Origin: a virus
IMG/VR virus record: IMGVR_UViG_3300025886_001308
Location: 1 to 24,175 of that record
Direction: 5' to 3' (one strand)
DNA length: 24,175 nt
A model generated the notes under the pieces. The model ran no database searches. It was not told where the DNA came from and worked only from the letters and a program-made list of their open reading frames with translations. Made by a program: the position numbers and the translations under genes. Below are positions 267-15,295 of the stretch, piece after piece (positions within the stretch are counted from its first letter, which is position 1; every line of letters starts with the position of its first letter).

Positions 267-1862
267 CTACAGGTATTGACCGCCGGCGCGATGATCTTCC
301 ACCTTCACCTTCTTGTCGTCTGCCAGGTCATGGACAAGTGATCGGACCTTGACGATCTCGTCCCCCTTGCGGCCGGTAATCTTACCCCAATCGGATGCAT
401 CCGATGTGTTCGGGAGATCCTTGGCTTCCTTAAACTCTTGATCAACCGCTGCGCGCAGATCTTCCTTACTGATACCATTAGTCTCGCCGCCAATATGACG
501 CTTGACAGCAGTCTTCTTTGCTCTGGATACAATATTCTCAAGCATAGCACCGGAGATGAAGTCGCGGAAGTACAATGTCTCACGATCCCCCTTTGAGTAA
601 CTAATCTCAAGAAATCGCTTATCGTCAGTCTCTTCAAAGATGTAATCAACTGCCGTCTTGATCATCGCATCTACATCCCCATCCAGCGGAAGAGCTGCGT
701 GTAGATATTTGGAAAGGATAGCTGTTGATGCCTCCTCGTTAGGTCGATCAAGCTTGATCTTAATGTCTAGACGACCAGGGCGGAGTACAGCAGGATCAAC
801 AAGATCTTGTCTGTTAGTCGCGCCGATGACAAGAACATTATGTAGACCCTCTACACCATCAAGTTCTGCAAGAAGAGTAGGCACAATCGTGCTTTCCATA
901 TCGGAAGATCGACCTGAGCCTCGCATCCTAAAGAGACTTTCCATTTCATCAAAGAAGATCACTACAGGGCTCTCAGGAGTAGCGGCTTCGCGCGCGCGTT
1001 GGAATAGCTCGCGGATCTTCCGCTCCGACTCGCCAACCCACTTCGTCAGAAGCTCAGGGCCGGAGATGTTCATAAACTGCGCCTGGCCATCCTTTGTTGC
1101 CAGACTATTTGCGATTGCCTTCGCGATCATCGTCTTACCACACCCAGGCGGGCCGTATAGCAGAATACCCTTTGGAGCTTCAAGCTCAAACTCAGCAAAC
1201 ACATCTGGGTATCTGTATGGAAGCTCGACACTATCATGGACGATTTCAATCGCTTCACCTGCGCCACCAATCATATCATATGTCACATCAGGAACTTTCT
1301 CAAGAAGAGCGTCCTTAGCATCTTCATGATAGACATACTCCAAAGCAAGTGCGGATTGTGGGTCAACAAGAACCTCATCCCCAGCCTTGAGTGGTCGGTT
1401 ATCATCAACCACTAGGCCTTCGCGGAGGTAAATGATCTTACGCTCATCCATTCGACCTTCAATGATGATACGACCATCATCAAGCACATCGATAACCTTA
1501 CTAATCTCGCCTGCATCAGCATACGGACCCAACTCAAGTGCGACCATCTGCTCGTTCATTAGGAGGTAGCGGCCGCGAGTAAGATCGTCTGGGTTGATGT
1601 TGATGGAAACATTACATCGCATTCGCCGACCATTGGCAATAACTTCAGCAGTGCCATCTTCGTTCATGGATAGATATGAAGCGTAGATGCTTGGTGGAGT
1701 TGAAAGACGCTCAAGCTCGGCGCGCATCTCTCCGATCTTTTTCTTTGCCTGGGTGAGCGTATATTCCAGCTTTTGATTCATGACGATGGTCTCATCATGC
1801 TCATCCATCATCTGACTGATCTGCTCCGACAATCTTATGTTTTCTTCGGATTCTTCACTCAA
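267..1862 (-). CDS. mpa: Proteasome-associated AAA ATPase, Mpa/ARC family
   Basis: 531-residue homologue of the actinobacterial ring ATPase that captures Pup-tagged proteins, unfolds them and passes them to the 20S proteasome. Visible layout: N-terminal coiled coil about 8-52 (the Pup-binding element in known Mpa); OB-fold region about 58-190; AAA module with Walker A GPPGCGKT 237-244, pore-loop W275-V-G, Walker B with D305-E306, and arginine fingers in RPGR 361-364. After the AAA core comes the ARC-specific segment around 405-455 (DDKRFLEISYSKGD, then FISGAMLENIV), followed by DLPNTSDASDWGKITGRKGD. The protein ends in GQYL, the docking tail that inserts into 20S alpha-ring pockets. It is shorter than M. 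tuberculosis Mpa (about 609), mostly at the N-terminus, and no key motif is missing. The start is TTG with GGAG 8 nt upstream. It follows the methyltransferase gene by 40 bp and probably shares its promoter. The identification is firm; the role in infection is inferred. Confidence 0.95.
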   Translation of the reverse strand: MSEESEENIRLSEQISQMMDEHDETIVMNQKLEYTLTQAKKKIGEMRAELERLSTPPSIYASYLSMNEDGTAEVIANGRRMRCNVSININPDDLTRGRYLLMNEQMVALELGPYADAGEISKVIDVLDDGRIIIEGRMDERKIIYLREGLVVDDNRPLKAGDEVLVDPQSALALEYVYHEDAKDALLEKVPDVTYDMIGGAGEAIEIVHDSVELPYRYPDVFAEFELEAPKGILLYGPPGCGKTMIAKAIANSLATKDGQAQFMNISGPELLTKWVGESERKIRELFQRAREAATPESPVVIFFDEMESLFRMRGSGRSSDMESTIVPTLLAELDGVEGLHNVLVIGATNRQDLVDPAVLRPGRLDIKIKLDRPNEEASTAILSKYLHAALPLDGDVDAMIKTAVDYIFEETDDKRFLEISYSKGDRETLYFRDFISGAMLENIVSRAKKTAVKRHIGGETNGISKEDLRAAVDQEFKEAKDLPNTSDASDWGKITGRKGDEIVKVRSLVHDLADDKKVKVEDHRAGGQYL

Positions 1863-1902: not shown

Positions 1903-3483
1903 TTAAGGTTTGCGGTACACAAAAACAGCCTCATACTTGCGATACATCTCACCGCCAGCGGCTTTCTTAATACGGACAAAACTTTCGGTGCGCGGTTTAC
2001 CTTCCTCGTCCACGCGATTTCCACCAGGCATAGTCGATAGACTCATCTTCAATGTTTCCACATACTCCATCCCTAACTCTTCAAGGATGTTGCGACTGTC
2101 GGTTTCAAGCGGAAGAGTTTCATTATCAAATATGCAGTTGGCAATGTTCCACAATAGATATCGATCGGATCGCAAAAACTCAACAGCAGTTTTCAGTGTC
2201 GGGCGAAGGAATCCATCGCGCCATGCATCATATGAATCGAACTTGTGTGCCGATTGCTCGGGATCTTCGGAATAGATTTCCTTGGCAAAGTACGGAGGGC
2301 TAGTGAATACCATATCCAACTTCCCTCGATACTTCTGAAAATCTGGATCATTCCCTATTACTTCCGATCCCACTTGAAATATAGCATACTTATTCGTATG
2401 AGGAAATAGGGAGTTTGCTCTATTTGTACGAGTGTTATAGAAATCAGCTAAATTGGAATACTTCGTTGATCCGTCTGGTAGATTATGATCGGTATTCGGA
2501 TCTGTGCCAATATACTGAATGTTCCGATCATCCTTAACTGCCATGGCACCAAGAATACGACCGCCCCAACCCATTGATGGATCATAAATGTTAATCTCAT
2601 CCTGATCCTTGATATGTTCAGTGTACCGCTCATAGAGATATCGAGCAGTCAGTGGTGGGAAGTTTACCGCATACTGGCAGAACGAAACACGGAAGGTTTT
2701 GAGACCCAACGGGAATATTCTTTGCCCTAACTTGTAGTATCTGATCTGGTATCCATCACAATCATCTGGGTTTCCCATGTTGCATTTGGACGATTCAGGT
2801 ATCGGGAGGTCCGAGATACGCTCTTTCGGAATAAAAAGCTCATGCTCGATTTCGGAGTCCTCAGCAGCGCCTGTATACCCCATATCCAGACGTTTGGGGG
2901 CTAGCCAGTAGTCATCTTCCAAATAATGTCTTTTATTATCTTCAAACCACTTTACCCACTCCTCACCACTCTCAGTATGAAATAGGAAATCTTTCTCATT
3001 ATTCCGTCGCACAGGCAAAGAATAGTGATAGAATCCATCTCGCTGATAATGACGGCGGACATACTTCAGAAAGCGTTCGTGAAGACTATCATCAATAACC
3101 CAATCATATACTGACTTTGCCTTACTCAAGTCTTTGCTGTATGCAATTCTCGTCTGGAGCATACCGGGATACCATTGGTTTGCCACGTTTCCAATATTCG
3201 TCTCATTGCGAATAACATTCTTGTCGCCCGTTAGGATATCCTCAGTTAGAAACTCATGAACCGGATAAGTAGACATTCGATCTAACTGACGAATGATGCC
3301 TTGTTCATCAAGCCCGTTGCGAGGCGGAATACCCTCATCCCAAGTCTTGGCGATGACCTTGCGAAGTTGTCGTGTCCAGTCTGAGAACTCATCATCACTC
3401 ATCGACATCGACTCTTCAAAGAGGATGTTGATTGCTGGGTCGTCAAGCAATGCTGCGTTTCTGGTGTAGAAGTGATTTTCCAT
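1903..3483 (-). CDS. Amino-type (N6-adenine/N4-cytosine) DNA methyltransferase-like protein
   Basis: 526 residues. The C-terminal half carries a SAM-dependent Rossmann methyltransferase: motif I is DPSMGWGGRI (301-310), with an acidic residue after the next strand (GTDPN 326-330), and catalytic motif IV is TSPPYF (394-399), typical of enzymes that methylate exocyclic amino groups of DNA. The target-recognition part would be the region after 400 or the long N-terminus. About 270 residues precede motif I and match nothing I recognise; a YHYSLPVRRN stretch near 152 and a segment before motif I (YAVNFPPLTARYLYE) look conserved rather than random. It is the first gene after the sigma70 promoter at 3491-3518 and is followed by the proteasomal ATPase. 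It could serve in self-protection against restriction, or act on a modified base. Specificity cannot be read from the sequence. Confidence 0.8.
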   Translation of the reverse strand: MENHFYTRNAALLDDPAINILFEESMSMSDDEFSDWTRQLRKVIAKTWDEGIPPRNGLDEQGIIRQLDRMSTYPVHEFLTEDILTGDKNVIRNETNIGNVANQWYPGMLQTRIAYSKDLSKAKSVYDWVIDDSLHERFLKYVRRHYQRDGFYHYSLPVRRNNEKDFLFHTESGEEWVKWFEDNKRHYLEDDYWLAPKRLDMGYTGAAEDSEIEHELFIPKERISDLPIPESSKCNMGNPDDCDGYQIRYYKLGQRIFPLGLKTFRVSFCQYAVNFPPLTARYLYERYTEHIKDQDEINIYDPSMGWGGRILGAMAVKDDRNIQYIGTDPNTDHNLPDGSTKYSNLADFYNTRTNRANSLFPHTNKYAIFQVGSEVIGNDPDFQKYRGKLDMVFTSPPYFAKEIYSEDPEQSAHKFDSYDAWRDGFLRPTLKTAVEFLRSDRYLLWNIANCIFDNETLPLETDSRNILEELGMEYVETLKMSLSTMPGGNRVDEEGKPRTESFVRIKKAAGGEMYRKYEAVFVYRKP

Positions 3484-3490
3484 ATGCTAT

Positions 3491-3518
3491 ATTATAGTCC
3501 CTTTTTCGGGGTTGTCAA
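3491..3518 (-). promoter_or_regulatory. Consensus sigma70 promoter for the methyltransferase-ATPase operon
   Basis: Minus strand reads TTGACA (3513-3518), a 16-nt spacer, and a perfect TATAAT (3491-3496). The ATG of the methyltransferase lies only 7 bases past the -10 box (start base 3483), so the leader is very short or absent. The spacer contains CCCCGAAAAAGGG, an imperfect palindrome that recurs in the promoter at 13160-13187. Confidence 0.85.
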
Positions 3519-3533
3519 GTGGTTTCTTCATAA

Positions 3534-3553
3534 AAGGATACGATTTTATCCTT
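3534..3553 (-). terminator. Terminator after the PLP-enzyme gene
   Basis: On the minus strand AAGGATA pairs with TATCCTT around a 6-nt loop and is followed by a short T-rich run (TTAT). The first base of the stem is part of the PLP gene stop codon. It separates the long operon from the next promoter at 3491-3518. Confidence 0.6.
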
Positions 3554-4356
3554 CAGGCAACATTCCATAGAAGAACAACAGGCGGCTTCTCATTACTCTC
3601 ATAGTATTCGTGCATGACACTCCACGCTTTGCCATCATATTCTGGCACGCTATCAAACGGCGGAGCATCGGCAGGCTTGACTTTCTGGGTGAACTTGTAG
3701 GGCGAGCGGATATGGGTGGCTCTTCCGATCTCGCGCTCGTCCATCCCATGACCAACACCGACCACAAAGCAATTGGCGTCTGGCCAAGCAAGTTGAAGCG
3801 AGCGATTCAGTGTCCCCGAACTACCAACACTCCACACATGATCTGGTTGAATATCAATACGTCTTGCTACCTTGATCATAGATCCAGTCACAGTCGGGTG
3901 TTCAAGCCCAAGCGGAAACTCCATTCGGTGTTCAGGATCCTTTGCGACATACTCACGACAACGCGCTTTAGTCACCGAAAGATATCCATTAGGTATCCAA
4001 TGATACTTGGCACCAAGAGCGCGCCCCGTATGTTGGTTGGGATGCAAATTGCTCATATCCCTTTTCGCCATAAAGATATGTGCTTTCTTGCCATAGATAC
4101 CGCACACCCTTGGCAAAGAAATTTGAGCATATCCAACAGCCGGGCACGCTCCAAAGCACCACTCATCAATGTCTGCATACTCTGGTGCATGACCGATCAT
4201 ATAGTCGAGGGCGCGAGTCTTCGATCCGTTTGTCAGCAGGTCGTCGCGCACAACGAAGATCCCATCATGTTCTGCGATGATCGGATCGGGATTGGGGTCA
4301 GACCATCCCTCAACTTTTTTTAGGTAATCTTCGGCTGTCATTTCAAATAAACTCAT
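3553..4356 (-). CDS. PLP-dependent fold-type-II enzyme, ACC deaminase/D-cysteine desulfhydrase-like
   Basis: 267 residues. VVRDDLLTNGSKTRALDYMIG near 35-54 matches the signature of the tryptophan-synthase-beta-like fold around the PLP lysine, here K46, as in ACC deaminase and D-cysteine desulfhydrase. FGACPAVGYAQISLPRVCGI (68-87) fits the following helix of that fold, and VGSSGTLNRSLQLAWP (177-192) is the glycine/serine loop that holds the cofactor phosphate. Fold-type-II enzymes act by elimination, replacement or deamination at amino acids. Length is well below the usual 320-340, so it is a compact version. The gene overlaps the upstream 377-residue gene by 4 bp (ATGA), which implies coupled translation. 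The substrate is unknown. The class is fairly secure; the reaction is not. Confidence 0.78.
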   Translation of the reverse strand: MSLFEMTAEDYLKKVEGWSDPNPDPIIAEHDGIFVVRDDLLTNGSKTRALDYMIGHAPEYADIDEWCFGACPAVGYAQISLPRVCGIYGKKAHIFMAKRDMSNLHPNQHTGRALGAKYHWIPNGYLSVTKARCREYVAKDPEHRMEFPLGLEHPTVTGSMIKVARRIDIQPDHVWSVGSSGTLNRSLQLAWPDANCFVVGVGHGMDEREIGRATHIRSPYKFTQKVKPADAPPFDSVPEYDGKAWSVMHEYYESNEKPPVVLLWNVA

Positions 4357-5486
4357 CGCGCGGTCCTCATCGTTTCATTATAGCGCATCATCCAATATGG
4401 TAACATGGCATCGATGCCTGGTCCAATCTTATCACTGTATACACCGAACCATTCATCTGGGTCGCGCGACCAGCAAAATCCTTTATAGTACGGCTCGTTA
4501 ATTCTCCTCTTCAGTGAATTATAAGAAGCAGGGGAGAGTTGAGTGTGTCCGGCAAGCAGATCAAAGTGTGGGTTATTATCATGCTCCACCATACTATGTA
4601 GTTTATCTCTCCATCGACGAACACCAGACCCACAGTCGTGAAAAGGGTTCAGCAGCATAAGAGAGTGTGCAATCATTAGATTGAGATTATATGTGTAAGT
4701 GTTCTGAATTGTTCGATTGTAGTGTAATGTCATTATCCAGTTGATACATGGATTGAAGAACACGCTATCGGGTCTATCACCATATGGTTTTACTGCGGCT
4801 GAATATAGCGCATCCAAACAAACCCGGAGCGGGGCATCAAGTTTATGGGCTGATGTTCCGTGAGTATTGCCTCGGTGATCCACAAGAGAGTAGTCTGTTA
4901 CTTGCATCCTATCCCACAGATCAGAAACGATTTCCTTGACACGCCATCGAACTTCAGGAACAAATTTCCACGCGCATGTTAAGCCAAACAACACACCACT
5001 GATTTGATCCTTGGTTGTCTTCGTCAGAAAGACATGATCCTCCCCATTAAACTCACCATGATATATGCGACCCTCGCGGATGCGATCACCAAAAGTGTTT
5101 CCTGATCCCATTAATGAAGCAACGGGATCGTATCCAATACGCGCCCAGGCACCATCAAGCGGAAAAACTTGACGAACGAGAACGCCAGGTGTTCCGGTGA
5201 CAGTCGTTAACAGCTCAATTCCATCAAGCGCATCGTGGACAAAGGCAATAGATTGATCGCGCGAATTCTGGCCCGGGCGCCTGAATCGATCGATATAGAA
5301 GACTTGATGTCTATATGACATTGCGGCTAAGTGTAATCCAGTGTATAGTGCATTGTCATCATCTGTTGCAAGGCGATTACCGGGTGGTTCTCTATATGCA
5401 ACAAACGACACTCCACTCACCGAATGATCACGATGATATCGGCTTTCGATATTATTAATAGTATGCTGGATATCTGGTTCCATCAA
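4353..5486 (-). CDS. Putative six-hairpin (alpha/alpha) glycosidase-like protein
   Basis: 377 residues. I see no T4 homologue. Two blocks resemble bacterial six-hairpin glycosidase-superfamily proteins: DDDNALYTGLHLAAMSYRHQ (42-61) followed by a segment ending LLTTVTGTPGVLVRQVFP, and later TKDQISGVLFGL followed by helical sequence and SLVDHRGNTHGTSAH. In that superfamily these correspond to repeated helical hairpins and acidic catalytic or sugar-binding residues. The remaining sequence is helical and rich in aromatic residues (Trp, Tyr, His), which suits carbohydrate binding. There is no signal peptide. It overlaps its neighbours on both sides by 4 bp, so it belongs to the same translational unit as the PLP and 131-residue genes. 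The fold call is pattern memory only; a non-enzymatic toroid is also possible. Confidence 0.45.
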   Translation of the reverse strand: MMEPDIQHTINNIESRYHRDHSVSGVSFVAYREPPGNRLATDDDNALYTGLHLAAMSYRHQVFYIDRFRRPGQNSRDQSIAFVHDALDGIELLTTVTGTPGVLVRQVFPLDGAWARIGYDPVASLMGSGNTFGDRIREGRIYHGEFNGEDHVFLTKTTKDQISGVLFGLTCAWKFVPEVRWRVKEIVSDLWDRMQVTDYSLVDHRGNTHGTSAHKLDAPLRVCLDALYSAAVKPYGDRPDSVFFNPCINWIMTLHYNRTIQNTYTYNLNLMIAHSLMLLNPFHDCGSGVRRWRDKLHSMVEHDNNPHFDLLAGHTQLSPASYNSLKRRINEPYYKGFCWSRDPDEWFGVYSDKIGPGIDAMLPYWMMRYNETMRTAR

Positions 5487-5878
5487 GATCGGTGACCCTT
5501 TCCTTCCATCGTATCACTATCAACGAAGCGCTCGCGGATAGATTCGATAACACACTCAAAGTCTTCGGTTGTTGCCAAGCGCATACGAATAATATCATCG
5601 GTATCTTCCGTATCACCAATTCCTCGGCGCTTCCTCATCTCCACCATAAAGGCATCCGAATATTTATCATCTCTCCAAATAAACTCGGGAGCTTCCTCGC
5701 CCTCATTCCAAACTATTACTTCATATATACGCTCGGTTTCTTCATCGAATATGACCGTAACATTACATTCTAGATCCAAATAGCGAGAGTTGTCCCCATA
5801 ACAATCGTATGAGTATTTTTCACCACCGATCGCGCGTAGTGGGATGCGTGAAAACATATCATCATATACTCGTTTCAT
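5483..5878 (-). CDS. Conserved-looking acidic protein of unknown function (131 aa)
   Basis: Not recognised. The protein is acidic, with a beta-rich first half (ECNVTVIFDEETERIYEVIV), a central WNEGEEAPEFIWRDDKYSDA segment, and a helical C-terminus ending in a basic GKGHRS. No signal peptide or membrane segment is visible. The gene starts 11 bp after the oxygenase gene and ends with a 4-bp overlap into the glycosidase-like gene, so it is very likely translated with them. Its position inside the accessory block suggests a small partner of one of the flanking enzymes, but nothing in the sequence shows which. Confidence 0.7.
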   Translation of the reverse strand: MKRVYDDMFSRIPLRAIGGEKYSYDCYGDNSRYLDLECNVTVIFDEETERIYEVIVWNEGEEAPEFIWRDDKYSDAFMVEMRKRRGIGDTEDTDDIIRMRLATTEDFECVIESIRERFVDSDTMEGKGHRS

Positions 5879-5889
5879 ATCAAAATCTC

Positions 5890-7089
5890 CTAAAGAGGGT
5901 AGAGTGCATCATATACCATTCCCCGAAGATCGGGGTCAGCTTCAACATCAACAACAAGGTGAATGCGATCTTCTGTTCCATTGTTGACAGCCGTATGTGG
6001 TTTGCGCGTGTCGATTGACCATAACGAACCTACGACCATATTCACTTCCTTTGGCTGATTGTATGTGTCCCACATCATAAACTTCACATCCTCGTTTGTG
6101 ATGATCGGGAAGTGGAAACGAAGAAGTTGTCCTTCTGCGACACCAGCATCAGAATCAACCTGATCTGTATGTCGGCGAAGCTCTCCACCATTGGGTGTTA
6201 GTCGCATTAAACGGATGCGATGATGGATGCCGGGGATCAGTTTCAGAAGATCCTCGACAGCAGGAAGCTGCGAGCGAAGTAATGTATCCTGAAGCGCAAA
6301 GGTCACACCAGCGTGTTCCTTTTTCCATTTGTTATTCATCTCGGATGGTTTGGTGATGAATGATGGATCATCGGTGTATCCGCGCAAAGACAAGGCTCCC
6401 CATGAATGCTTGTCGTTGTAGTTGCTGTAGTGATCAGTGAAGGTCAGGCCGAGATCGTTTAGTTGATCTTGTAGCTTAGTGATATGTGGAGTAATCTCAC
6501 CCGGCGGGATGGCCATCTGATCTAGAGTGCTTCGCTCAAGTGGATCAATCACAGGATGGTTTCGTGTGTCATCAAACAGTGTGGCTCCCGAAGGTGTGCC
6601 ATTCTTGAAATATACCGTGTATATCTCAGCAAACGATGTGATCTTCGTTCCTACCTTGTGAAATCCAGCCTCGCGAAGTACCTCGTTCTGAACTATCCAA
6701 TCTGCCCATGCAAAAGCCCAGCAAGGTTCATTGATGGAGTGAAGGTGTTCAATTGTTTTGGTAGCATCTCGGAAATATCTACCGTTACCAGAGTACAGTG
6801 ACAAGTTAGTGATCGTCAAATCACCAGGCAACTTCTCACCAATGGTAACTTTCCCATACATATTAATCTTGCCTTTGACCTTTGCTTCTTTGATATTATA
6901 TCGGCAGAATCCATGATTTACATAACTACCATCAGCAATTGATTCAGCAATCCTATGCTTCTTGACTTCACTGAAGGGTGAGCAGGCAAACTCATTATAT
7001 TCACGATAACATCCTTCTATGTCTTTGAGAACTTCAAGGGGGACACCATGCTGCCACGCCTTCATTTCCGTTTCGTCTTTACCTGCCAT
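5890..7089 (-). CDS. Aspartyl/asparaginyl beta-hydroxylase-like 2-oxoglutarate oxygenase with extra N-terminal domain
   Basis: 399 residues. The C-terminal ~120 match the AspH-type cupin: iron ligands H307-x-D309 (RRHTDQ), strand FHFPIITNEDVKFMMW (325-340), GSLWSIDTRKPHTAVNNG with the distal iron ligand H365, and R375 ten residues later in the position that binds 2-oxoglutarate. These enzymes couple O2 and 2-oxoglutarate to hydroxylation of a substrate side chain or small molecule. The first ~165 residues form a separate domain; VLREAGFHKVGTKITSFAEI (137-156) looks like the end of a GNAT acetyltransferase fold, though no clear acetyl-CoA loop is seen. The middle contains WGALSLRGYTDDP, typical of phage members of this hydroxylase group. 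Start ATG overlaps the gp46 stop (TAATG). The substrate is unknown. Confidence 0.75.
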   Translation of the reverse strand: MAGKDETEMKAWQHGVPLEVLKDIEGCYREYNEFACSPFSEVKKHRIAESIADGSYVNHGFCRYNIKEAKVKGKINMYGKVTIGEKLPGDLTITNLSLYSGNGRYFRDATKTIEHLHSINEPCWAFAWADWIVQNEVLREAGFHKVGTKITSFAEIYTVYFKNGTPSGATLFDDTRNHPVIDPLERSTLDQMAIPPGEITPHITKLQDQLNDLGLTFTDHYSNYNDKHSWGALSLRGYTDDPSFITKPSEMNNKWKKEHAGVTFALQDTLLRSQLPAVEDLLKLIPGIHHRIRLMRLTPNGGELRRHTDQVDSDAGVAEGQLLRFHFPIITNEDVKFMMWDTYNQPKEVNMVVGSLWSIDTRKPHTAVNNGTEDRIHLVVDVEADPDLRGMVYDALYPL

Positions 7090-8813
7090 TATATTCCCGA
7101 TACAATCTTAGAGAATCCGCGCACCTTTTCAAATCGCATCGTATTCTTGAACTTATCGGCAATCTGGTCACCCTTATGACTCACAACAATGACTGTCTGA
7201 TCTTCGCCTAGATTATACAGTATCTTGGTCACTTCCGCAAGTCCTCCATCGTCCAAAGAGCTATCAAATATCTCATCAAGAATGAGCAGATTAGTAGAGC
7301 AACTATTCTTCATTCTGGCTATGGCACGCCAAGTCAACAGAAGGGCAAGGTCGATGCGCGATTTCTCACCCTCACTAAATGACGCATAGCTGAAATCATC
7401 CCGATGTCGAGAGAGGATTGTTTCGGTGAAGTTCTCGTCGAGGTGAAACTTCACGAAGAAGTCGAGTTTGGCAAGGTATTGATTGACAAGTCGATTGATG
7501 ATCGGTAGGTATTGTTTAACAATCAGAGTTTTAATCCCACTGTCCTTCAGTAGTCCGCCAACTGCTTTGTACACTTCGGCGCGCGAAGCCAGTTCCTCTT
7601 TCTGACTTTCAAGTTCGCGTCGAGCGGACTGTGCTTCGGTAATCCCTGCCTCAATGTCTGCCGTATCCTTCTGCGAACCAACCTTTGTGAGATGCTCGTT
7701 CAATGAATCGATGATACGCTGTGTGGCCCTTATGTCTGAGTTGATATTAGTTATCTGAGTAGTAGTCGTTGCGATTTCATTCTTCAGTACATTCCCATGA
7801 TCGATCATGCGTGTAATATCGGCGATCCTCTTCGTTAGGTCACCTAGATGTTTCTGATGTTCATCGCGCTCGGTGGTCTTGGTCTTCGCAGCAAACTGCT
7901 TGAATGCCGAATCAATTGTTTGCTCGCACATCGGGCAGTCATCTCGGTCATGGAGAAAGTTGAGTTGCTTATCATATCCAGCAACCTTTCCTTCCAGCTT
8001 GGACCGAATGCTCTTTGCTTTATCGAGACTCTTGGTGTGAAAATCAAGACGAGCATAGTCTTCATGCGCAGCCAGTTCATTGATACTACAGTCAAGACTT
8101 TTCAACGAAGCTTCACCGGCAGCAATTGTTTTGGTGTGATCGCCAATCTTCTGTTGCAGCTCATCAACCTCTGTGTTATTTGACCTCTTAATTGAGTCAA
8201 GTGTCTTTGACTGTAGATCGATATACTGATCCTTTAGGTCAATACCAGACTTAACACCATTGACCTCATCTTTATGGTCAGCAACGCGCGTCTTTAGCGC
8301 GTCATTCATTTGCCCGAAGATTGCGATGTCGAGAAGATCTTCGATGATCTCTCGTCGCTGGCCAGTGGGCAACTGCATGAAGGGAACGAAGGTGGAGCTA
8401 CCGAGGATAACGACTTGACAGAATGACTTGTACCCGAATCCGAGGATTTGGTTTTCAAGAATATCCTGATAGTCTTTGGCAGCAGCAGGGCACGGAACTT
8501 CAGTTCCATTACAAGTGATCGTAAAGACATTTGGCTTGATTCCCCGTACCACATGGTATTGCTTTGCTCCGATGGTAAAGTTGATAGTAACCACAAGATC
8601 CCGTTCGTTAATACTATTAACCAACTGCGGGCGGTTCACCTTACGAAAAGGTTTCCCGAAAAGAACGAATGTCAGAGCATCCAAAATCGTAGACTTGCCT
8701 GATCCATTATCGCCCATAATCAACGTGGTCTGGTTATTGGACAGATCAATGACCGTAGGATAGTCACCGGTAGACAAGATGTTCTTGTATGTCAGTTCCT
8801 CAAATGTTACCAT
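7089..8813 (-). CDS. 46: gp46 recombination endonuclease subunit (SbcC/Rad50-like)
   Basis: 574 residues, close to T4 gp46 (560). With gp47 it forms the Mre11/Rad50-like complex that resects DNA ends for recombination-dependent replication. Walker A is GDNGSGKST (34-42). Long coiled-coil arms (about 180-400) flank the zinc hook C293-P-M-C296. Near the C-terminus the ABC signature SFSEGEKSRIDLALLL and the Walker B stretch LLILDEIFD are intact, followed by a VVSHKG switch motif. The ATG overlaps the gp47 stop by one base, and its own stop overlaps the oxygenase start, so expression is coupled along the operon. Confidence 0.95.
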   Translation of the reverse strand: MVTFEELTYKNILSTGDYPTVIDLSNNQTTLIMGDNGSGKSTILDALTFVLFGKPFRKVNRPQLVNSINERDLVVTINFTIGAKQYHVVRGIKPNVFTITCNGTEVPCPAAAKDYQDILENQILGFGYKSFCQVVILGSSTFVPFMQLPTGQRREIIEDLLDIAIFGQMNDALKTRVADHKDEVNGVKSGIDLKDQYIDLQSKTLDSIKRSNNTEVDELQQKIGDHTKTIAAGEASLKSLDCSINELAAHEDYARLDFHTKSLDKAKSIRSKLEGKVAGYDKQLNFLHDRDDCPMCEQTIDSAFKQFAAKTKTTERDEHQKHLGDLTKRIADITRMIDHGNVLKNEIATTTTQITNINSDIRATQRIIDSLNEHLTKVGSQKDTADIEAGITEAQSARRELESQKEELASRAEVYKAVGGLLKDSGIKTLIVKQYLPIINRLVNQYLAKLDFFVKFHLDENFTETILSRHRDDFSYASFSEGEKSRIDLALLLTWRAIARMKNSCSTNLLILDEIFDSSLDDGGLAEVTKILYNLGEDQTVIVVSHKGDQIADKFKNTMRFEKVRGFSKIVSGI

Positions 8814-9898
8814 CAGTCCCCCTCTCTCGTTAGTGCTTCAGAGTAAAGTCCGGCAAGCAAGTCCTTAATATCATTCTTTCGACTCACTTCCATACTATCA
8901 ACATACGAAGTCAAGATCGACATTGTGTCTTGCGCTTGATCTACAGTCTGCTGTGCTGTAGTGGATAGTAGATCATCACTGTAGTCCTCAACAATCGCAA
9001 CATTGAATGGCGAAGCCTTATACAACTTATCAAGCACCATATCATACCAATATGGATTAGTCTTATCCTGAACAACGAACTTGACACATCGATTTCGATA
9101 TCGCTCAAAGTCATCCGACATCATATCTTCAAGGGACTTCTTGCTATCATTATAGAATATCTTGTGATACATACGGTATGGATTCTCGATGAACTTTAGA
9201 TCATGATCATCCAGATCGAACACATGGAAGCCGCGCGGATCTTGATAATCACTCCACGTCATTTCATATGGCGCGCCCAAATAGAAGACTGTGCCGTCAT
9301 CCGATTTGTGGTGATAATGACCAGTCATCACCTTATCAAAGCGATCAAAGATCGACGGGTCTTGGCCATGAATATTGGGCGCGCCTCGGTGCATCTGAAA
9401 ACCAGAAAGCTCCAAGTGACCCATCACGACAGCAGCGTCCGTCTCCGTGATCAGCTTGTGACTTCGTTCGCGGTTGTCTTCGTTGATCCACGGAACGAAC
9501 AGAATCTTCTTACCACAGATCTCAACTTCAGTTGGCTCCTGATATACCCAAGGCTCACATTCACCTTCAAATGTCGTGAACAGTTCTGTCATCGAATTGA
9601 TATTGGAGTCGTTTCTGTTATGTAGGTCATGATTTCCAATGATGACATGTGTGTCGATCTTCTCTCGCCATAGACGAAAGATAAAATCATCACGGAACGT
9701 CTGAAGCGTGCGAAAGTTGATATACTTACGACGATCACATATATCACCAAGATGAATCACAGTTGATATGTTGTTGTCCTTGAGATAAGGAAAGAACACA
9801 TTGTTATAAAAGTCCATAAAGTAATCAAGAAATACTGGACTATCGTTCCTAGCGCCGAAATGTGTATCGGTAATTAAAGCGACTAAGTTTTTACTCAA
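8813..9898 (-). CDS. 47: gp47 recombination endonuclease subunit (SbcD/Mre11-like)
   Basis: 361 residues (T4 gp47 is about 340). It is the metallophosphoesterase nuclease that partners gp46. The metal-binding motifs are all present in order: D11-x-H13 (TDTHFG), GDICDRR with D52, GNHD 88-91, GHLELSGF, and GHYHH in the last motif of the phosphoesterase core. The C-terminal ~100 residues are helical and should contact the base of the gp46 coiled coil. The start is TTG (9896-9898) with GGAG 7 nt upstream, 15 bp after the small membrane peptide gene. Confidence 0.94.
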   Translation of the reverse strand: MSKNLVALITDTHFGARNDSPVFLDYFMDFYNNVFFPYLKDNNISTVIHLGDICDRRKYINFRTLQTFRDDFIFRLWREKIDTHVIIGNHDLHNRNDSNINSMTELFTTFEGECEPWVYQEPTEVEICGKKILFVPWINEDNRERSHKLITETDAAVVMGHLELSGFQMHRGAPNIHGQDPSIFDRFDKVMTGHYHHKSDDGTVFYLGAPYEMTWSDYQDPRGFHVFDLDDHDLKFIENPYRMYHKIFYNDSKKSLEDMMSDDFERYRNRCVKFVVQDKTNPYWYDMVLDKLYKASPFNVAIVEDYSDDLLSTTAQQTVDQAQDTMSILTSYVDSMEVSRKNDIKDLLAGLYSEALTREGD

Positions 9899-9913: not shown

Positions 9914-9988
9914 TTATATTGGACTTTTGATCAAAAGGATCATGATCAATAATATAATAGCACCCAAAAATATTGTAATAATATTCAT
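9914..9988 (-). CDS. 24-residue hydrophobic membrane micropeptide
   Basis: The short frame reads MNIITIFLGAIILLIMILLI then KSPI. It is almost entirely one membrane-spanning helix of about 18 residues with a single Lys near the C-terminus. The ATG overlaps the gp55 stop (ATGA), and an exceptionally good ribosome binding site (GGAGGA, 5 nt before the ATG) lies inside the gp55 3' end. It ends 15 bp before the gp47 start. A strong RBS, exact overlap and a clean transmembrane composition argue that it is translated. Function unknown; small phage membrane peptides can modulate host envelope enzymes, lysis or superinfection, but no such link is visible here. Confidence 0.6.
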   Translation of the reverse strand: MNIITIFLGAIILLIMILLIKSPI

Positions 9989-10566
9989 TTTTCCTCCACG
10001 AACAAAGAAGCCCCATTGGATGTTCGTTCGCGCTTCGCCTTAACCTTCCGTTGCTTTTCGCGCTGCTCTTTCAGTGATTCTTCATAGTTCTTGATGAACT
10101 CGTTACGGGCTGCGTGTTCTTCTCGAATATTAGTCTTACGAGTAGTTCCACCCTGTGCAATGGCTTCTTCCAAATCAAGATTGTCAAGCTGCTTATACTT
10201 AACATAGAGTTGCCTCTTCTCTTTCTGAATACGCCGAAGAAACGCATACCAGATGATCTGTGTAAAATACGCGAATGGGTTCTGCGTTTTCTCGGGATCA
10301 AAGTTGTAGATATACTGGATACAGTTCTCCACACCATCCATGATCATATCGTCTCTGTAAGTGTAGTTGATGAAGTTCGGTTTGTATGAAAGATGCGTAG
10401 CGATCTTCATAAAACAATCCCCAATGTAATCAGGGATTCTTGGGCGAGGATCATCATTATTATCTGCTTCAATTATCTTCGCATTATATTCAACCATAGC
10501 AGCAAAGAACTGCTTGTTATCTACATAATGAGATTTTGATTGCTCTTGATTATTACGGCGCTGCAT
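9985..10566 (-). CDS. 55: gp55 late-transcription sigma factor
   Basis: 193 residues (T4 gp55 is 185). This divergent sigma70-family protein directs host RNA polymerase to TATAAATA-type late promoters, which are present upstream of the head and tail genes in this window. Alignable stretches with T4 gp55 are the start (HYVDNKQFFAAMVEYNAKI), the central DDMIMDGVENCIQYIYNFDP, and NPFAYFTQIIWYAFLRRIQKEK (in parts), corresponding to the sigma region 2 core-binding and -10 recognition helices. The basic tail and final FVEEK would contact the sliding clamp in the T4 model. The ATG overlaps the previous stop by one base (TAATG). Confidence 0.95.
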   Translation of the reverse strand: MQRRNNQEQSKSHYVDNKQFFAAMVEYNAKIIEADNNDDPRPRIPDYIGDCFMKIATHLSYKPNFINYTYRDDMIMDGVENCIQYIYNFDPEKTQNPFAYFTQIIWYAFLRRIQKEKRQLYVKYKQLDNLDLEEAIAQGGTTRKTNIREEHAARNEFIKNYEESLKEQREKQRKVKAKRERTSNGASLFVEEK

Positions 10567-11000
10567 TAGTGAATTGTCCCTTTCATATCTCGTGTCATGA
10601 ACTCACTAAGAAACTCATCAAGTTCAGGTTCGTTTGTCTCTTCATCATAATCTTCCGATGTTTTTGATGAGTTGATCATATCCAACTGACCCTTTAACTT
10701 TTCGGTGCGATTATTAATACTTTCGAGGGAGTCTTTATACCAATCCGACATTTCTGAGTTTACGGCAAAATACGTTGTAATGCTCGACGGTGTAAGCTTA
10801 ATCGGTTGATCGGGATCTTCCGTGAAAGGTAGCCATTTTCGAATAAGGGGAGGTGAGTATGTGTATTCATCCATCACCATCACACAGGCGTCCCATAATC
10901 GAACAGATCCAAACCAATCTGCGCCAGTTGTCTTTGCCATTAATTCTGTACCATCCACTAATACAATATAGTGAACTTTCATATTATCTACTGCTATCAT
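10566..11000 (-). CDS. Sm/LSM-like small conserved protein of marine T4-like phages
   Basis: 144 residues. The first ~90 follow the pattern of a small beta-barrel protein commonly found next to gene 55 in marine T4-like phages: VHYIVLVDGTELMAKTTG (9-26), a strand DACVMVMDEY, then RKWLPFTEDPDQPIKLTPSS and a segment ending in NSEMSDWYKDSLESINN. The first part resembles an Sm1-type motif (strand, Asp-Gly, strand). The acidic C-terminal ~50 residues (SEDYDEETNEPELDEFLSEF) look disordered. The gene overlaps uvsW by 4 bp upstream and gene 55 by 1 bp downstream. An RNA-binding or transcription-linked role would fit but is unproven. Confidence 0.6.
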   Translation of the reverse strand: MIAVDNMKVHYIVLVDGTELMAKTTGADWFGSVRLWDACVMVMDEYTYSPPLIRKWLPFTEDPDQPIKLTPSSITTYFAVNSEMSDWYKDSLESINNRTEKLKGQLDMINSSKTSEDYDEETNEPELDEFLSEFMTRDMKGTIH

Positions 11001-12469
11001 TTGATCTCCACTTTGTACAATTTGACTGGAAATTTCTCTGCGACATAATATTTGTGCCTCTCAATGAAATGAGTTGTTGCGAAGTTCTTTTTACTCCCAG
11101 TTGTTAAGTCGTCTACAATATCATATAGAGTTGCTGCGTTCTTTGTTTCTGTAGTTCGGAGAACGCGACCGATACTTTGAAGCACTCGGATCTTTGACTT
11201 GCCCGGATGCGAGAAGATTACATTGTGCAGATTCTTGATATTTACTCCTGTACTGAAAACACCCGCCGAAGCAATAATTATTACATCATCATTATCTTCT
11301 GTAATGGCACGGACCTGTTCCCTCAATTCTGCGGCAGTGCCACCCCAGACGTAGAATATTTGCTTGTTTTCTGCCTTTTCTTCGATCATACGATATAGCA
11401 CGTTGCCATGCTTCTCAACGAAGTTGAATAGTAGTAACGTATTCCCCGAAAGTGAAAGTGTTAGGTTACGAATAAAGATATTTCTCTTATGGTTGCCTAT
11501 CAGAAAGTCAATCTCTTCGTGGTACTTCATCTTCACCACTTCGCGACATTGCTCTTTCGGGTACTTTAGTGCGACAGCCTTGATCTGTAGTTTAGCAAGG
11601 TGTCCATCATCTTGCAAGTCCTTTGTCTTAATTATTTTGCGAATGCGACCAAATAATCCTTCAAGCACCAGAGAATGAGTCTTGGCATCGGCAATTGTTC
11701 CCGTCATACCGAAACGAAACTTAACATTAGTCATCTTCGTCATCATCGTTTGAATGGACTTGGCTTGAAACTGATGTGCCTCATCACCAATAACAACATC
11801 AAACTGATCAAACCATTTCTTTGACAACTTATATGCAGACTGCCATGTTGATATGACGACAGGCAAGTCTGTATCTTTTGACTTACCACCAGAAATACGA
11901 TGAACACTCTCTTCCGCATTCCATTCATCATTACGCGCATAGTCATCAAAGTCGCTGTATAGCTGATGAACGAGCGAAATCGTGGGGACAATAATTAGGA
12001 TCTTCCCTTCACATTGTTGCTGATAGTATCGCGTCAGTAGATATGCGATCAGCGATTTACCGGAGCCAGTTGGACAAAGAATGAGCTTGCGGTGATCACG
12101 AACACAGGAAACAAAAGCTTCTGTTTGATAGTCGCGCTGCTCGAAGGGCAGGTTAAGTGTGTTCGCGAAATCATTGGCTTCCATCAGGCTAAACGACGAT
12201 GCTATGTTCAGGTCAGACGGATAGGATATATCGTAATCTCTATCCTGAGCAAACTGCTCAATATGATGAAGCAACCCACCGTATATCGTGTGATTACGAA
12301 CATCCAAAATTCTAATCTTGCCATCCCAGATCCGGTTGCGAAACGCGGGCATAAACTGGTGGCCGGGGACCATAAATGTAAAGTGGTCCCCCATCTCGGC
12401 GAGGATGTGAGGCTCCCCACTAACATGGAGATATACCTCATTTATTTTTGTCAGCTCAATATCAGACAT
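10997..12469 (-). CDS. uvsW: UvsW-like RNA-DNA/DNA helicase
   Basis: 490 residues (T4 UvsW about 500). This SF2 helicase unwinds R-loops and branched recombination intermediates and switches T4 replication from origin- to recombination-dependent initiation. An N-terminal substrate-binding domain (about 1-100) contains FMVPGHQFMPAFRNRIWDGK. The helicase core has QRDYQTEAF (Q-type motif), Walker A CPTGSGKS (132-139), GDEAHQF with DEAH 229-232, GMTGTI, and motif VI QSIGRVLRT near 440. The gene begins 18 bp after pup and ends overlapping the Sm-like gene by 4 bp (ATGA). Confidence 0.95.
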   Translation of the reverse strand: MSDIELTKINEVYLHVSGEPHILAEMGDHFTFMVPGHQFMPAFRNRIWDGKIRILDVRNHTIYGGLLHHIEQFAQDRDYDISYPSDLNIASSFSLMEANDFANTLNLPFEQRDYQTEAFVSCVRDHRKLILCPTGSGKSLIAYLLTRYYQQQCEGKILIIVPTISLVHQLYSDFDDYARNDEWNAEESVHRISGGKSKDTDLPVVISTWQSAYKLSKKWFDQFDVVIGDEAHQFQAKSIQTMMTKMTNVKFRFGMTGTIADAKTHSLVLEGLFGRIRKIIKTKDLQDDGHLAKLQIKAVALKYPKEQCREVVKMKYHEEIDFLIGNHKRNIFIRNLTLSLSGNTLLLFNFVEKHGNVLYRMIEEKAENKQIFYVWGGTAAELREQVRAITEDNDDVIIIASAGVFSTGVNIKNLHNVIFSHPGKSKIRVLQSIGRVLRTTETKNAATLYDIVDDLTTGSKKNFATTHFIERHKYYVAEKFPVKLYKVEIK

Positions 12470-12487: not shown

Positions 12488-12667
12488 CTATTCGCCACCA
12501 CGCTGTACAAAGCTCTTAACGAACTCTTCAGCATTCTCCTCTAGAACATCATCGATGGCATCTAACAGACTATCAATTTCTGATGTGTCTGCTGTATCCG
12601 ATGTTGTTTCTTCGGGCTGCTCCTCTGGAGCATCCTCTGTCTTCTGCGCCGTCTTCTGTTCTGCCAT
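12488..12667 (-). CDS. pup: Prokaryotic ubiquitin-like protein, Pup (phage-encoded)
   Basis: 59 residues, close to bacterial Pup (60-69). The N-terminal ~30 (MAEQKTAQKTEDAPEEQPEE and following TTSDTADTSE) are acidic and disordered, as in Pup, where this part threads into the ATPase pore. The helical core IDSLLDAIDDVLEENAEEFV (31-50) is nearly the same as in mycobacterial Pup and is the part that binds the Mpa coiled coil. The end, VKSFVQRGGE, finishes in Gly-Gly-Glu: the ligation-ready form that needs no deamidation by Dop. Lysines at 5, 9 and 51. The gene sits 26 bp after uvsY and 18 bp before uvsW, in an operon started by the promoter at 13160-13187. The ribosome binding site is weak (ACGGGG). 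It cannot be confused with the acidic gp22 or gp67 proteins because of the conserved core and tail. Identification is firm. Confidence 0.97.
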   Translation of the reverse strand: MAEQKTAQKTEDAPEEQPEETTSDTADTSEIDSLLDAIDDVLEENAEEFVKSFVQRGGE

Positions 12668-12693
12668 TGTATTGCCCCGTTAGTTGAGTTCGC

Positions 12694-13128
12694 TTATCCG
12701 CCGGTAAGGAACTGCTGCCACTTTATCGCATTGTTGATCTGAAAGGATCGATTATTGACCTGAGACATAATACTCTTGATCAGGTCGATCTTTTCCTTCT
12801 GATCTCCAAGCTCAATCACATACTTATTTAGGACGGGATCACCATCAACGAATCGTTGAGTATCCTGCTTCATTACCTTTAAATCAAAAGGATCCCATTC
12901 ATACTTTTTTAGGGCATCTTCATCTAACTTACCCGAGAAATACATCCAGCGAAGAGTCTTTACCTCTTCAACTCGTGCCATCATTCTGCGGTATACTGCA
13001 TTCTCAGCAGATAGCATCTTATGGTACTTGTGATGCAGGTCGGGGATCTTCAGCGACTCAACATCGAGGGATGTCGAATCCATTGCCTTGTCCTTTTGCC
13101 ACTCATCTTCAATGTCACTTAATGTCAT
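12694..13128 (-). CDS. uvsY: UvsY-like recombination mediator
   Basis: 144 residues (T4 UvsY 137). It loads the UvsX recombinase onto gp32-coated single-stranded DNA. It shares the T4 pattern: an N-terminal DIEDEWQKD segment followed by DSTSLDVESLKIPDLHHKY, a central basic helix RMMARVEEVKTLRWMYFSGK corresponding to the T4 KKVALKARLDYYSG region, then ALKKYEWDPFDLK and a C-terminal helical part ending in FQINNAIKWQQFLTGG. It is the first gene after the sigma70 promoter at 13160-13187 and heads the operon containing pup. Confidence 0.88.
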   Translation of the reverse strand: MTLSDIEDEWQKDKAMDSTSLDVESLKIPDLHHKYHKMLSAENAVYRRMMARVEEVKTLRWMYFSGKLDEDALKKYEWDPFDLKVMKQDTQRFVDGDPVLNKYVIELGDQKEKIDLIKSIMSQVNNRSFQINNAIKWQQFLTGG

Positions 13129-13957: not shown

Positions 13958-15295
13958 CTACATAAGGTTGCGGACCAAAACCGAGCGGTAGTAGATGTTG
14001 CGGTTAGCAGCAGCAACACCGGCCCCATCGTTCAGGTCAACCGTGCCCGCACCACCCGTTGTGGCGAATGGGTTAGCAACCATGCCGTAGCGGGTCTTGA
14101 ATGCGATCTTTGGCTGGAACGAATTCTCACCAACGGCTCGCACCATCTGGAGCGGAACGTATGGGCAGTAGAAGAGTCCAGCGTCATATGCGCTCGATCC
14201 CTTATAACCTACCGTGAAGTATTCCGTACCATCTGTGGTGAAGTAAGGATCAATGAAGACCTTAAATCGACCATTGAGAACACCAGCAAACGTGTTGCCC
14301 GTGTCATCAACCTGAAGGTTGTCCTTCAGTGCTGGAGTGTGATCCAAAAGACCAGCCATCGAGAGAGCAGAAGCGATATCTGACGAGCAGATAATCATGT
14401 TACCCTTCCCGCGTCGAGTCGCCTTTGCGATCTGGTTAGCTTCACGCTCAAGCTGGAACATAAGTCCCTTGAAGCGTTCGACCGACCATCGACCGTTGGC
14501 ATCAACATCAAGATCAAACTCACCAGCGGTTGCTGTGTTAGTCGCAGCACCCGACGTTGCTGTCTTGTTGATCGAGCGAACGACTTCGCGGTTGATCTCA
14601 GCAAGAATTTCAGCGGAGAGGATATTTGAAAGCTCCGTCTCTGCATCAAGTCCGTGAATCGCTTTGAGATCCTGAGCAAGTTCAACACTGTACTCTGCCT
14701 TGAGGGCTCGTGACTTCGCGGTCACTGTGACCTTATCAATCGAGAATGCCATTTCAGCAATCTGACCACCCGCAGTAGTGCCGAGGTTTTCAGCATCACT
14801 AGTAGCCATACCACTACCCGTTTCGGCCGTATCAAGAATTGAGTGCGATCCCGCATGAGAATCAGCACCAGCAGGAATGGCCCCGCCCGCAGCAGTCGAA
14901 GAGAACGCAGTGTTCGCTTCGTTGAACAGCGCTTCGTTTGCACGACGCGGTGTAGCCGTGTCACTGGCTGAGTAGTTCGCGTACATCGCGAAGATCAGGC
15001 CTGTAGGACCGGTCATTGGCTGAACGCCGCAGATGTCATACGCAATCAGGTTAGGCATTGAACGTCGAACGAGCGAGATGAGAACGGGATCGTAAGAATC
15101 GACGCCGCTGCTGGCACCCAAGCCACCACCAGAGTTGGTTGGTGCTTCATGAAGACTCTGTTCGCGAATTGCCTGTTCTTGGTTCTCAAGAAGAACGGCC
15201 GTTACCGCTGACCGATATCGGTCAGTGATTGCCGGCATGTCTTCGTGATTCAGAACAGGGGCCCACTTTGACTGTAGTTCCTCTGAAAGATACAT
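13958..15295 (-). CDS. 23: gp23 major capsid protein
   Basis: 445 residues with the T4-family (HK97-fold) capsid signature: SLVRRSMPNLIAYDICGVQP in the N-terminal part, TVTAKSRALKAEYSVELAQD, LKAIHGLDAETELSNILSAE, and PKIAFKTRYGMVANPF near the end, all typical of gp23. Mature gp23 is made by gp21 cleavage after an (I/L)-x-E site; SLHE at 47-50 followed by APTNS fits that rule and lies just before the conserved part. The gene has its own late promoter at 15360-15367 and a strong terminator after it, as expected for the most abundant virion protein. Somewhat shorter than T4 gp23 (521), as is common in marine relatives. Confidence 0.97.
   Translation of the reverse strand: MYLSEELQSKWAPVLNHEDMPAITDRYRSAVTAVLLENQEQAIREQSLHEAPTNSGGGLGASSGVDSYDPVLISLVRRSMPNLIAYDICGVQPMTGPTGLIFAMYANYSASDTATPRRANEALFNEANTAFSSTAAGGAIPAGADSHAGSHSILDTAETGSGMATSDAENLGTTAGGQIAEMAFSIDKVTVTAKSRALKAEYSVELAQDLKAIHGLDAETELSNILSAEILAEINREVVRSINKTATSGAATNTATAGEFDLDVDANGRWSVERFKGLMFQLEREANQIAKATRRGKGNMIICSSDIASALSMAGLLDHTPALKDNLQVDDTGNTFAGVLNGRFKVFIDPYFTTDGTEYFTVGYKGSSAYDAGLFYCPYVPLQMVRAVGENSFQPKIAFKTRYGMVANPFATTGGAGTVDLNDGAGVAAANRNIYYRSVLVRNLM

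Follow-up and report, generated by a model that had tools for sequence, protein, structure and literature searches.

Does a virus carry its own Pup, the tag protein of the Pup-proteasome pathway, within its recombination operon, and if so, what would it use the tag for? The locus that raises this question is a short open reading frame in the window, by which we mean the whole stretch of viral DNA analysed here (24,175 nucleotides). The frame occupies 12488..12667 on the minus strand, runs from an ATG start to a TAG stop and encodes a protein of 59 residues, MAEQKTAQKTEDAPEEQPEETTSDTADTSEIDSLLDAIDDVLEENAEEFVKSFVQRGGE, with an acidic, variable N-terminal half, a helical core carrying the Pup motif DAIDDVLEENAEEFV, and GGE as its final residues before the TAG; on the plus strand, reading over the same interval is interrupted by stops. 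The initial annotation, made from the letters alone, had recognised a 59-residue Pup-core product ending in GGE and had proposed a search against the Pfam Pup family. This search returned a significant match, and the product of the minus-strand frame passes the curated cut-offs of both PF05639 (67.6 bits against 27, E=1.8e-18) and TIGR03687 (66.8 bits against 41.45, E=1.2e-18), bearing out the assignment; PHROGs holds no Pup family. Pup chains in the PDB match the phage protein with E about 1e-9, and the alignment of its last 28-32 residues with the Pup chains in 3m91 and 3m9d is ungapped. The conserved helical core, through which members of this family engage the PafA groove and the coiled coil of Mpa, is predicted to be present, and the residues that are invariant across ten diverse phage Pups, including the IDDVLEENA helix, F49, Q55 and the GG pair, are all kept. 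With the Pups of mycobacteria, Streptomyces and Gram-negative Pup-proteasome bacteria, the phage protein shares a near-identical C-terminal core, the GG[EQ] end and an acidic, low-complexity N-terminal half, but it is shorter (59 residues compared to about 64), ends in QRGGE where actinobacterial Pups have QKGG[EQ], and is encoded between uvsY and uvsW, away from pafA and dop, unlike bacterial pup. The gap on the 5' side of the gene (12668..12693, minus strand) contains the G-rich stretch AACGGGGCAATACA ahead of the ATG, which resembles a Shine-Dalgarno sequence and is represented by AGGG or AGGA in relatives.

The position of pup between two recombination genes, likewise noted at the outset, was corroborated by the matches of both neighbours. 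Directly upstream, across a gap of 26 nt, lies the gene of the recombination mediator UvsY (12694..13128; PF11056 1e-17, phrog_231 1e-34), and directly downstream, after 18 nt, that of the helicase UvsW (10997..12469; PF21241 1.2e-14, phrog_16 7.8e-99), all three genes being on the minus strand. A search of viral metagenomes with Pup as bait, also suggested by the initial annotation, found pup between uvsY and uvsW in eight other IMG/VR contigs, and the same junctions are thereby seen in nine contigs, comprising four sequence types from several datasets. Because these contigs had been obtained by way of Pup itself, the retrieval was repeated with UvsW as bait: pup lay between uvsY and uvsW in all seven contigs with a UvsW 85-89% identical to that of the window (uvsY-uvsW gap, 196-200 nt), but in none of 68 more distant T4-like contigs (UvsW identity <=53%), and uvsY and uvsW abut or overlap in 46 of the 67 distant contigs that include uvsY. 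In two isolates, Melnitz EXVC044M and the cyanophage P-TIM40, both T4-like and marine, pup is absent and uvsY and uvsW overlap, unlike in the window, while the remaining order, capsid genes, uvsY, uvsW, a hypothetical gene, gp55, gp47 and gp46, is the same. Relative to these two phages pup is a clean insertion, and the simplest reading is that it was gained once, at the uvsY-uvsW junction, in an uncultured T4-like lineage.

That the window belongs to a T4-like phage follows from its gp23 major capsid protein gene (13958..15295, minus; PF07068 5.9e-140), a marker of these phages, together with the T4 core gene order. The genes of the recombination nucleases gp46 (7089-8813, minus; PF02463) and gp47 (8813-9898, minus; PF00149) are arranged as in Melnitz and P-TIM40, and a gp55-like late sigma factor gene (9985..10566, minus), the product of which gives a weak sigma70 match, occupies the position of the annotated late sigma factor in both. 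Taken with the family matches above, the window ORF is confirmed, at the level of sequence, as a genuine Pup of a T4-like phage. Between gp46 and the ATPase gene described below, a conserved set of minus-strand genes (1903-7089) encodes a methyltransferase-like protein (1903-3483), a PLP/threonine-dehydratase-like protein (3553-4356), a 377-residue protein without assignment (4353-5486), a small protein, also without assignment (5483-5878), and a relative of aspartyl/asparaginyl hydroxylases (5890-7089). Together these genes could serve to modify nucleotides or DNA; in Melnitz the corresponding place is occupied by a 'nucleotide modification associated domain' protein. A scan baited with the 526-residue neighbour of the ATPase gave no returns. 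The gp23 capsid protein contains only 3.1% lysine and one lysine-free run of 177 residues, and the tail tube and sheath proteins of the window are similarly lysine-poor (2.8-3.4%). Low lysine content in virion proteins might limit their pupylation, an observation made on the proteins of the window alone.

The frame is also maintained. The eight related contigs contain three further Pup protein types with 73-80% identity, and all four T4-like types end in GGE. Pairwise dN/dS over the whole gene is 0.05-0.33, with most pairs at <=0.15, and over the 32-residue core it is 0.02-0.12. Single values are rough, since the sequences are short; in every pair, though, the gene as a whole is constrained, with a low ratio comparable to that of gp23, while in one close pair the ratio is about 1 for the variable N-terminal half taken by itself. 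The pup frame is under purifying selection, on which ground we rejected a decaying ORF, and a frameshift in related phages, named at the outset as a reason to discard the assignment, was seen in none of the eight related contigs.

Viral metagenome assemblies can hold bacterial contamination and chimeric joins, and for one apparent Pup-phage this is what we found: MT835496.1 (L018), deposited in GenBank as 'Bacteriophage sp.' with a length of 159 kb, carries mpa-dop-pup-pafA in order, with the mpa frame in two pieces, so at least that part looks bacterial, and we rejected the entry. For the pup of the window, the chance that contamination, chimeric assembly or ORF decay accounts for the gene is negligible in view of the junctions replicated in nine contigs, the T4 core genes on both sides, the purifying selection and the lack of dop, prcBA or pafA alongside; contamination and a prophage-edge artefact were accordingly rejected. 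The bacterial loci retrieved with the same ATPase hold a complete mpa-dop-pup-prcB-prcA-pafA cluster within about 6 kb, or somewhat more in Streptomyces, and since all six genes stand together there, what the phage carries is neither a piece of chromosome nor a contaminant. Only pup and mpa are common to this canonical locus and the phage lineage, in which the two are unlinked and dop, prcBA and pafA were not found.

The ATPase in question is encoded at 267..1862 on the minus strand, about 10 kb from pup. Its gene has a TTG start, which aligns with the ATG start of the homologue in L036, and the 531-residue product matches the TIGR03689 equivalog of Mpa/ARC proteasomal AAA ATPases with 616.7 bits against a cut-off of 504.75. 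Two proteasomal OB domains (PF17758 and PF16450) and the AAA module PF00004 are recognised, and Walker A (GPPGCGKT), Walker B (VIFFDE) and the pore-loop residues are intact. An AlphaFold2 model (mean pLDDT 75.5) predicts an N-terminal helix of 52 residues (3-54), followed by the OB and AAA domains; mycobacterial Mpa structures account for all of its best PDB matches, and the fold matches substrate-engaged Mpa, with an rmsd of 5-11 Å over the whole chain that makes the relative placing of the domains unreliable. The equivalog match, the model and the PDB matches support the view that what had initially been described as a phage ATPase coiled coil is part of a full Mpa/ARC proteasomal ATPase. 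It has the coiled coil, OB and AAA domains and C-terminal GQYL of cellular Mpa/ARC (TIGR03689; PDB 5kzf, 7px9, 7pxd) at about 46-48% identity, but differs in being phage-encoded, 531 residues long, distant from pup and deeply diverged. The length of the phage branch, some 1.9-2.0 changes per site, makes an altered function possible. Two further contigs of the lineage contain the gene: G007 (27.3 kb) has pup and mpa in the same order as the window, and G040 (73.8 kb), which starts just upstream of mpa, has mpa together with additional replication genes of T4-like type, identified by visual inspection. One stretch of G040, at about 16-28 kb (L188-L190), departs from its densely coding surroundings in having mostly short ORFs, on both strands.

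A complete Pup-proteasome system would also comprise a ligase and a protease. PafA/Dop (PF03136) was found in none of 38 Pup-bearing IMG/VR records, in the Streptomyces phage Dagobah (discussed below) or in the Mpa-bearing contigs including G040, while the gene was detected, as expected, in Corynebacterium glutamicum as a control. Likewise, 20S subunits (PF00227) were found neither in 25 Pup-bearing records tested nor in G040, and neither in 36 IMG/VR records tested nor in Dagobah. Neither family was found in G000, G007 or G040, which are accordingly not classed as a complete system with its own PafA/Dop and 20S. The lineage sequence is incomplete, consisting of 24-, 27- and 74-kb pieces, and many Pup-bearing records are fragments; it is nevertheless likely that PafA/Dop and 20S are missing from the whole lineage genome. 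A hidden phage ligase or protease was rejected for the sampled sequence, which has no PF03136 or PF00227 match; the AlphaFold2 model of the 377-residue protein, in which a cryptic ligase fold was sought, was uninformative (pLDDT 46).

Since no ligase or protease was detected, the phage probably borrows those of its host. On balance we therefore lean towards a reading in which the phage supplies the Pup tag and the Mpa unfoldase and relies on the ligase and 20S protease of the host, raising or redirecting protein turnover; conjugation, docking, targets, benefit and host are what we infer in this reading. Phage Pup would be made already ending in glutamate and would therefore need no deamidation by Dop, in line with what is known of Pups ending in Glu, which require none before PafA ligation (PMC3511204, PMC8223512). 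Host PafA would join it to lysines of target proteins, and the phage Mpa-like hexameric ATPase, with or instead of that of the host, would capture the tag via its coiled coils; Pup is known to bind the Mpa coiled coil, with threading proposed to begin at the disordered N-terminus of Pup (PMC6466877). The ATPase would then dock on the host 20S through GQYL, the motif by which Mpa does so (PMC8223512), and unfold the targets into it. The setting would be an infected, probably Gram-negative host with a Pup-proteasome system, where the presence of PafA and 20S is presumed, and the outcome the removal of particular host proteins, amino-acid recycling, or both.

In proteasome-less corynebacteria, Pup and ARC work without a proteasome. 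By analogy, the phage pair might be a proteasome-independent unfolding or remodelling module, for example one that disassembles host complexes, and the lack of a 20S gene in the phage records tested would agree with this. However, all three lineage Mpas retain GQYL (as ATGQYL in G007 and G040), whose known role is docking on 20S, although their last 20 residues are otherwise variable, and we regard such a module as improbable. Slightly less probable still is simple supplementation, in which phage Pup would replace host Pup depleted after host shut-off, leaving host proteostasis normal and the choice of targets unchanged. The GGE form would be usable at once, and marine T4-like phages carry auxiliary genes to which pup could be analogous; a separate and strongly diverged phage Mpa, however, is not explained by supplementation itself.

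Pup is more widespread among phages than this lineage. Besides the window, 37 viral contigs contain Pup, of which eight are T4-like; the six other Pup contigs checked pass the Pfam cut-off, and the rest were identified by tblastn alone. The gene lies near the terminase large subunit gene in L013, L014, L016, L040 and L042, near the portal gene in L053, near the endolysin gene in L043 and Dagobah, and near a ribonucleotide reductase gene in L037, and these varied contexts imply several independent gains. A place just upstream of terminase genes recurs in unrelated phages (L014/L015, L040, L042, L013, L016). Both GGE and GGQ ends occur among phage Pups, and one contig, L011, carries a WhiB gene, which points to an actinobacterial host for that phage. 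A relative of UvsW is encoded in about 2,455 phage records, but among isolate phages tblastn with the window Pup returned only Dagobah and one probably misfiled bacterial fragment, and tblastn with the Pup of another phage returned no matches; because low-complexity filtering limits such searches, the single isolate is a lower bound. Dagobah Pup (QMP84414.1), annotated as 'ubiquitin-like protein Pup', is phage-borne and ends in GGE like that of the window, but this phage is a 47-kb actinophage in which pup lies between the endolysin gene and a primase/polymerase; its genome shows no Mpa. Conversely, eight further viral contigs (L019, L020, L062-L067) encode an Mpa relative without a detected Pup; the one in L019 adjoins a terminase gene, some have a shortened coiled coil, and that of L063 ends in GMYL, not GQYL.

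Many of the other Pup-bearing phage contigs have no detected Mpa, so Pup can serve a phage without it. This speaks for interference with host pupylation, the main rival reading, in which phage Pup would flood host PafA, Mpa or Dop and thereby blunt the pupylation of phage proteins, possibly a form of defence or quality control, with phage Mpa acting as a partner or an additional decoy. Lysine-poor proteins are over-represented in mycobacteriophages, which has been interpreted by the authors as pupylation avoidance (PMC10665810), and free Pup ending in Glu would presumably rival host Pup for PafA in any case. For a decoy, however, a ligatable GGE would be unnecessary, as would an ATPase with intact Walker motifs and GQYL, yet all of these are kept, and we consider such inhibition unlikely, if less so than the two preceding alternatives. 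Of the two roles offered in the initial annotation, redirected degradation would fit this anatomy better than competition.

The same annotation had assumed an actinobacterial setting, for which we found no support; the nearest isolates, the Pup C-terminus and the Mpa tree, in which the phages are weakly placed, point elsewhere. By UvsW and gp23, the nearest isolates are Methylophilales, Pelagibacter, Stenotrophomonas and cyanobacterial phages. The lineage Pup C-terminus, VK[NS]FVQRGGE, includes the QRGG that is present in 34 of 34 Pups from Gram-negative genomes and in none of 59 from Actinomycetota, which have QKGG, the Gram-negative sample comprising Methylomirabilota, Rokubacteria and the phylum of the MAGs L108, L119, L153 and L156, with Pups above the cut-off in 78 of 379 genomes. 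It is an imperfect host sign, because the WhiB-bearing phage L011 also has QRGG. In the Mpa trees, the sampled Actinomycetota form a group that excludes the phages (95-98 SH-aLRT), but the phages sit on a very long branch, and a tree joining phage Mpas to Actinomycetota is not rejected (AU p 0.44). Together, these three lines of evidence, none of them decisive, make a Gram-negative host of the lineage reasonably probable. Two labels in this material deserve caution: the 'Spirochaeta' MED672 MAG (L153) shares its GTDB phylum with 'Myxococcota' MAGs, making its name doubtful, and the Mpa genes of two 'Acidobacteria' MAGs (L114/L115) nest among Acidimicrobiia, by misbinning or transfer.

The Pup-proteasome pathway has so far been treated as purely cellular, and the analyses and reviews searched, dating from 2008-2021 (including PMC3511204, PMC8223512 and PMC6466877), do not mention phages. 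The initial statement that no phage Pup had been characterised holds in that we found no paper describing one, but GenBank already annotates one in Dagobah, whose paper leaves pup undiscussed (PMC7650747). Our literature search, which covered few subscription journals or preprints, found no phage pair of tag and unfoldase, no fixation at uvsY-uvsW and no spread of pup across phages; the protein families themselves are already known, and phage pup is not unique to the window lineage. The fixation of pup in the recombination operon, the presence of mpa nearby and the occurrence of pup in many unrelated phages argue that pupylation matters in infection, whether it serves the phage or threatens it. 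It is a serious possibility, to which we give not quite even weight, that phage Pup and phage ATPase, with borrowed ligase and protease, give the phage a degradation route of its own, aimed at selected host proteins, in Gram-negatives with a little-studied Pup system. If unrelated phages have captured pup repeatedly and independently, the Pup pathway would be a general battleground between phage and host. The phage pair consists of defined, testable proteins, one of them a natural Pup expected to function in the absence of Dop, and would provide an experimental way into how the choice of pupylation targets can be changed.
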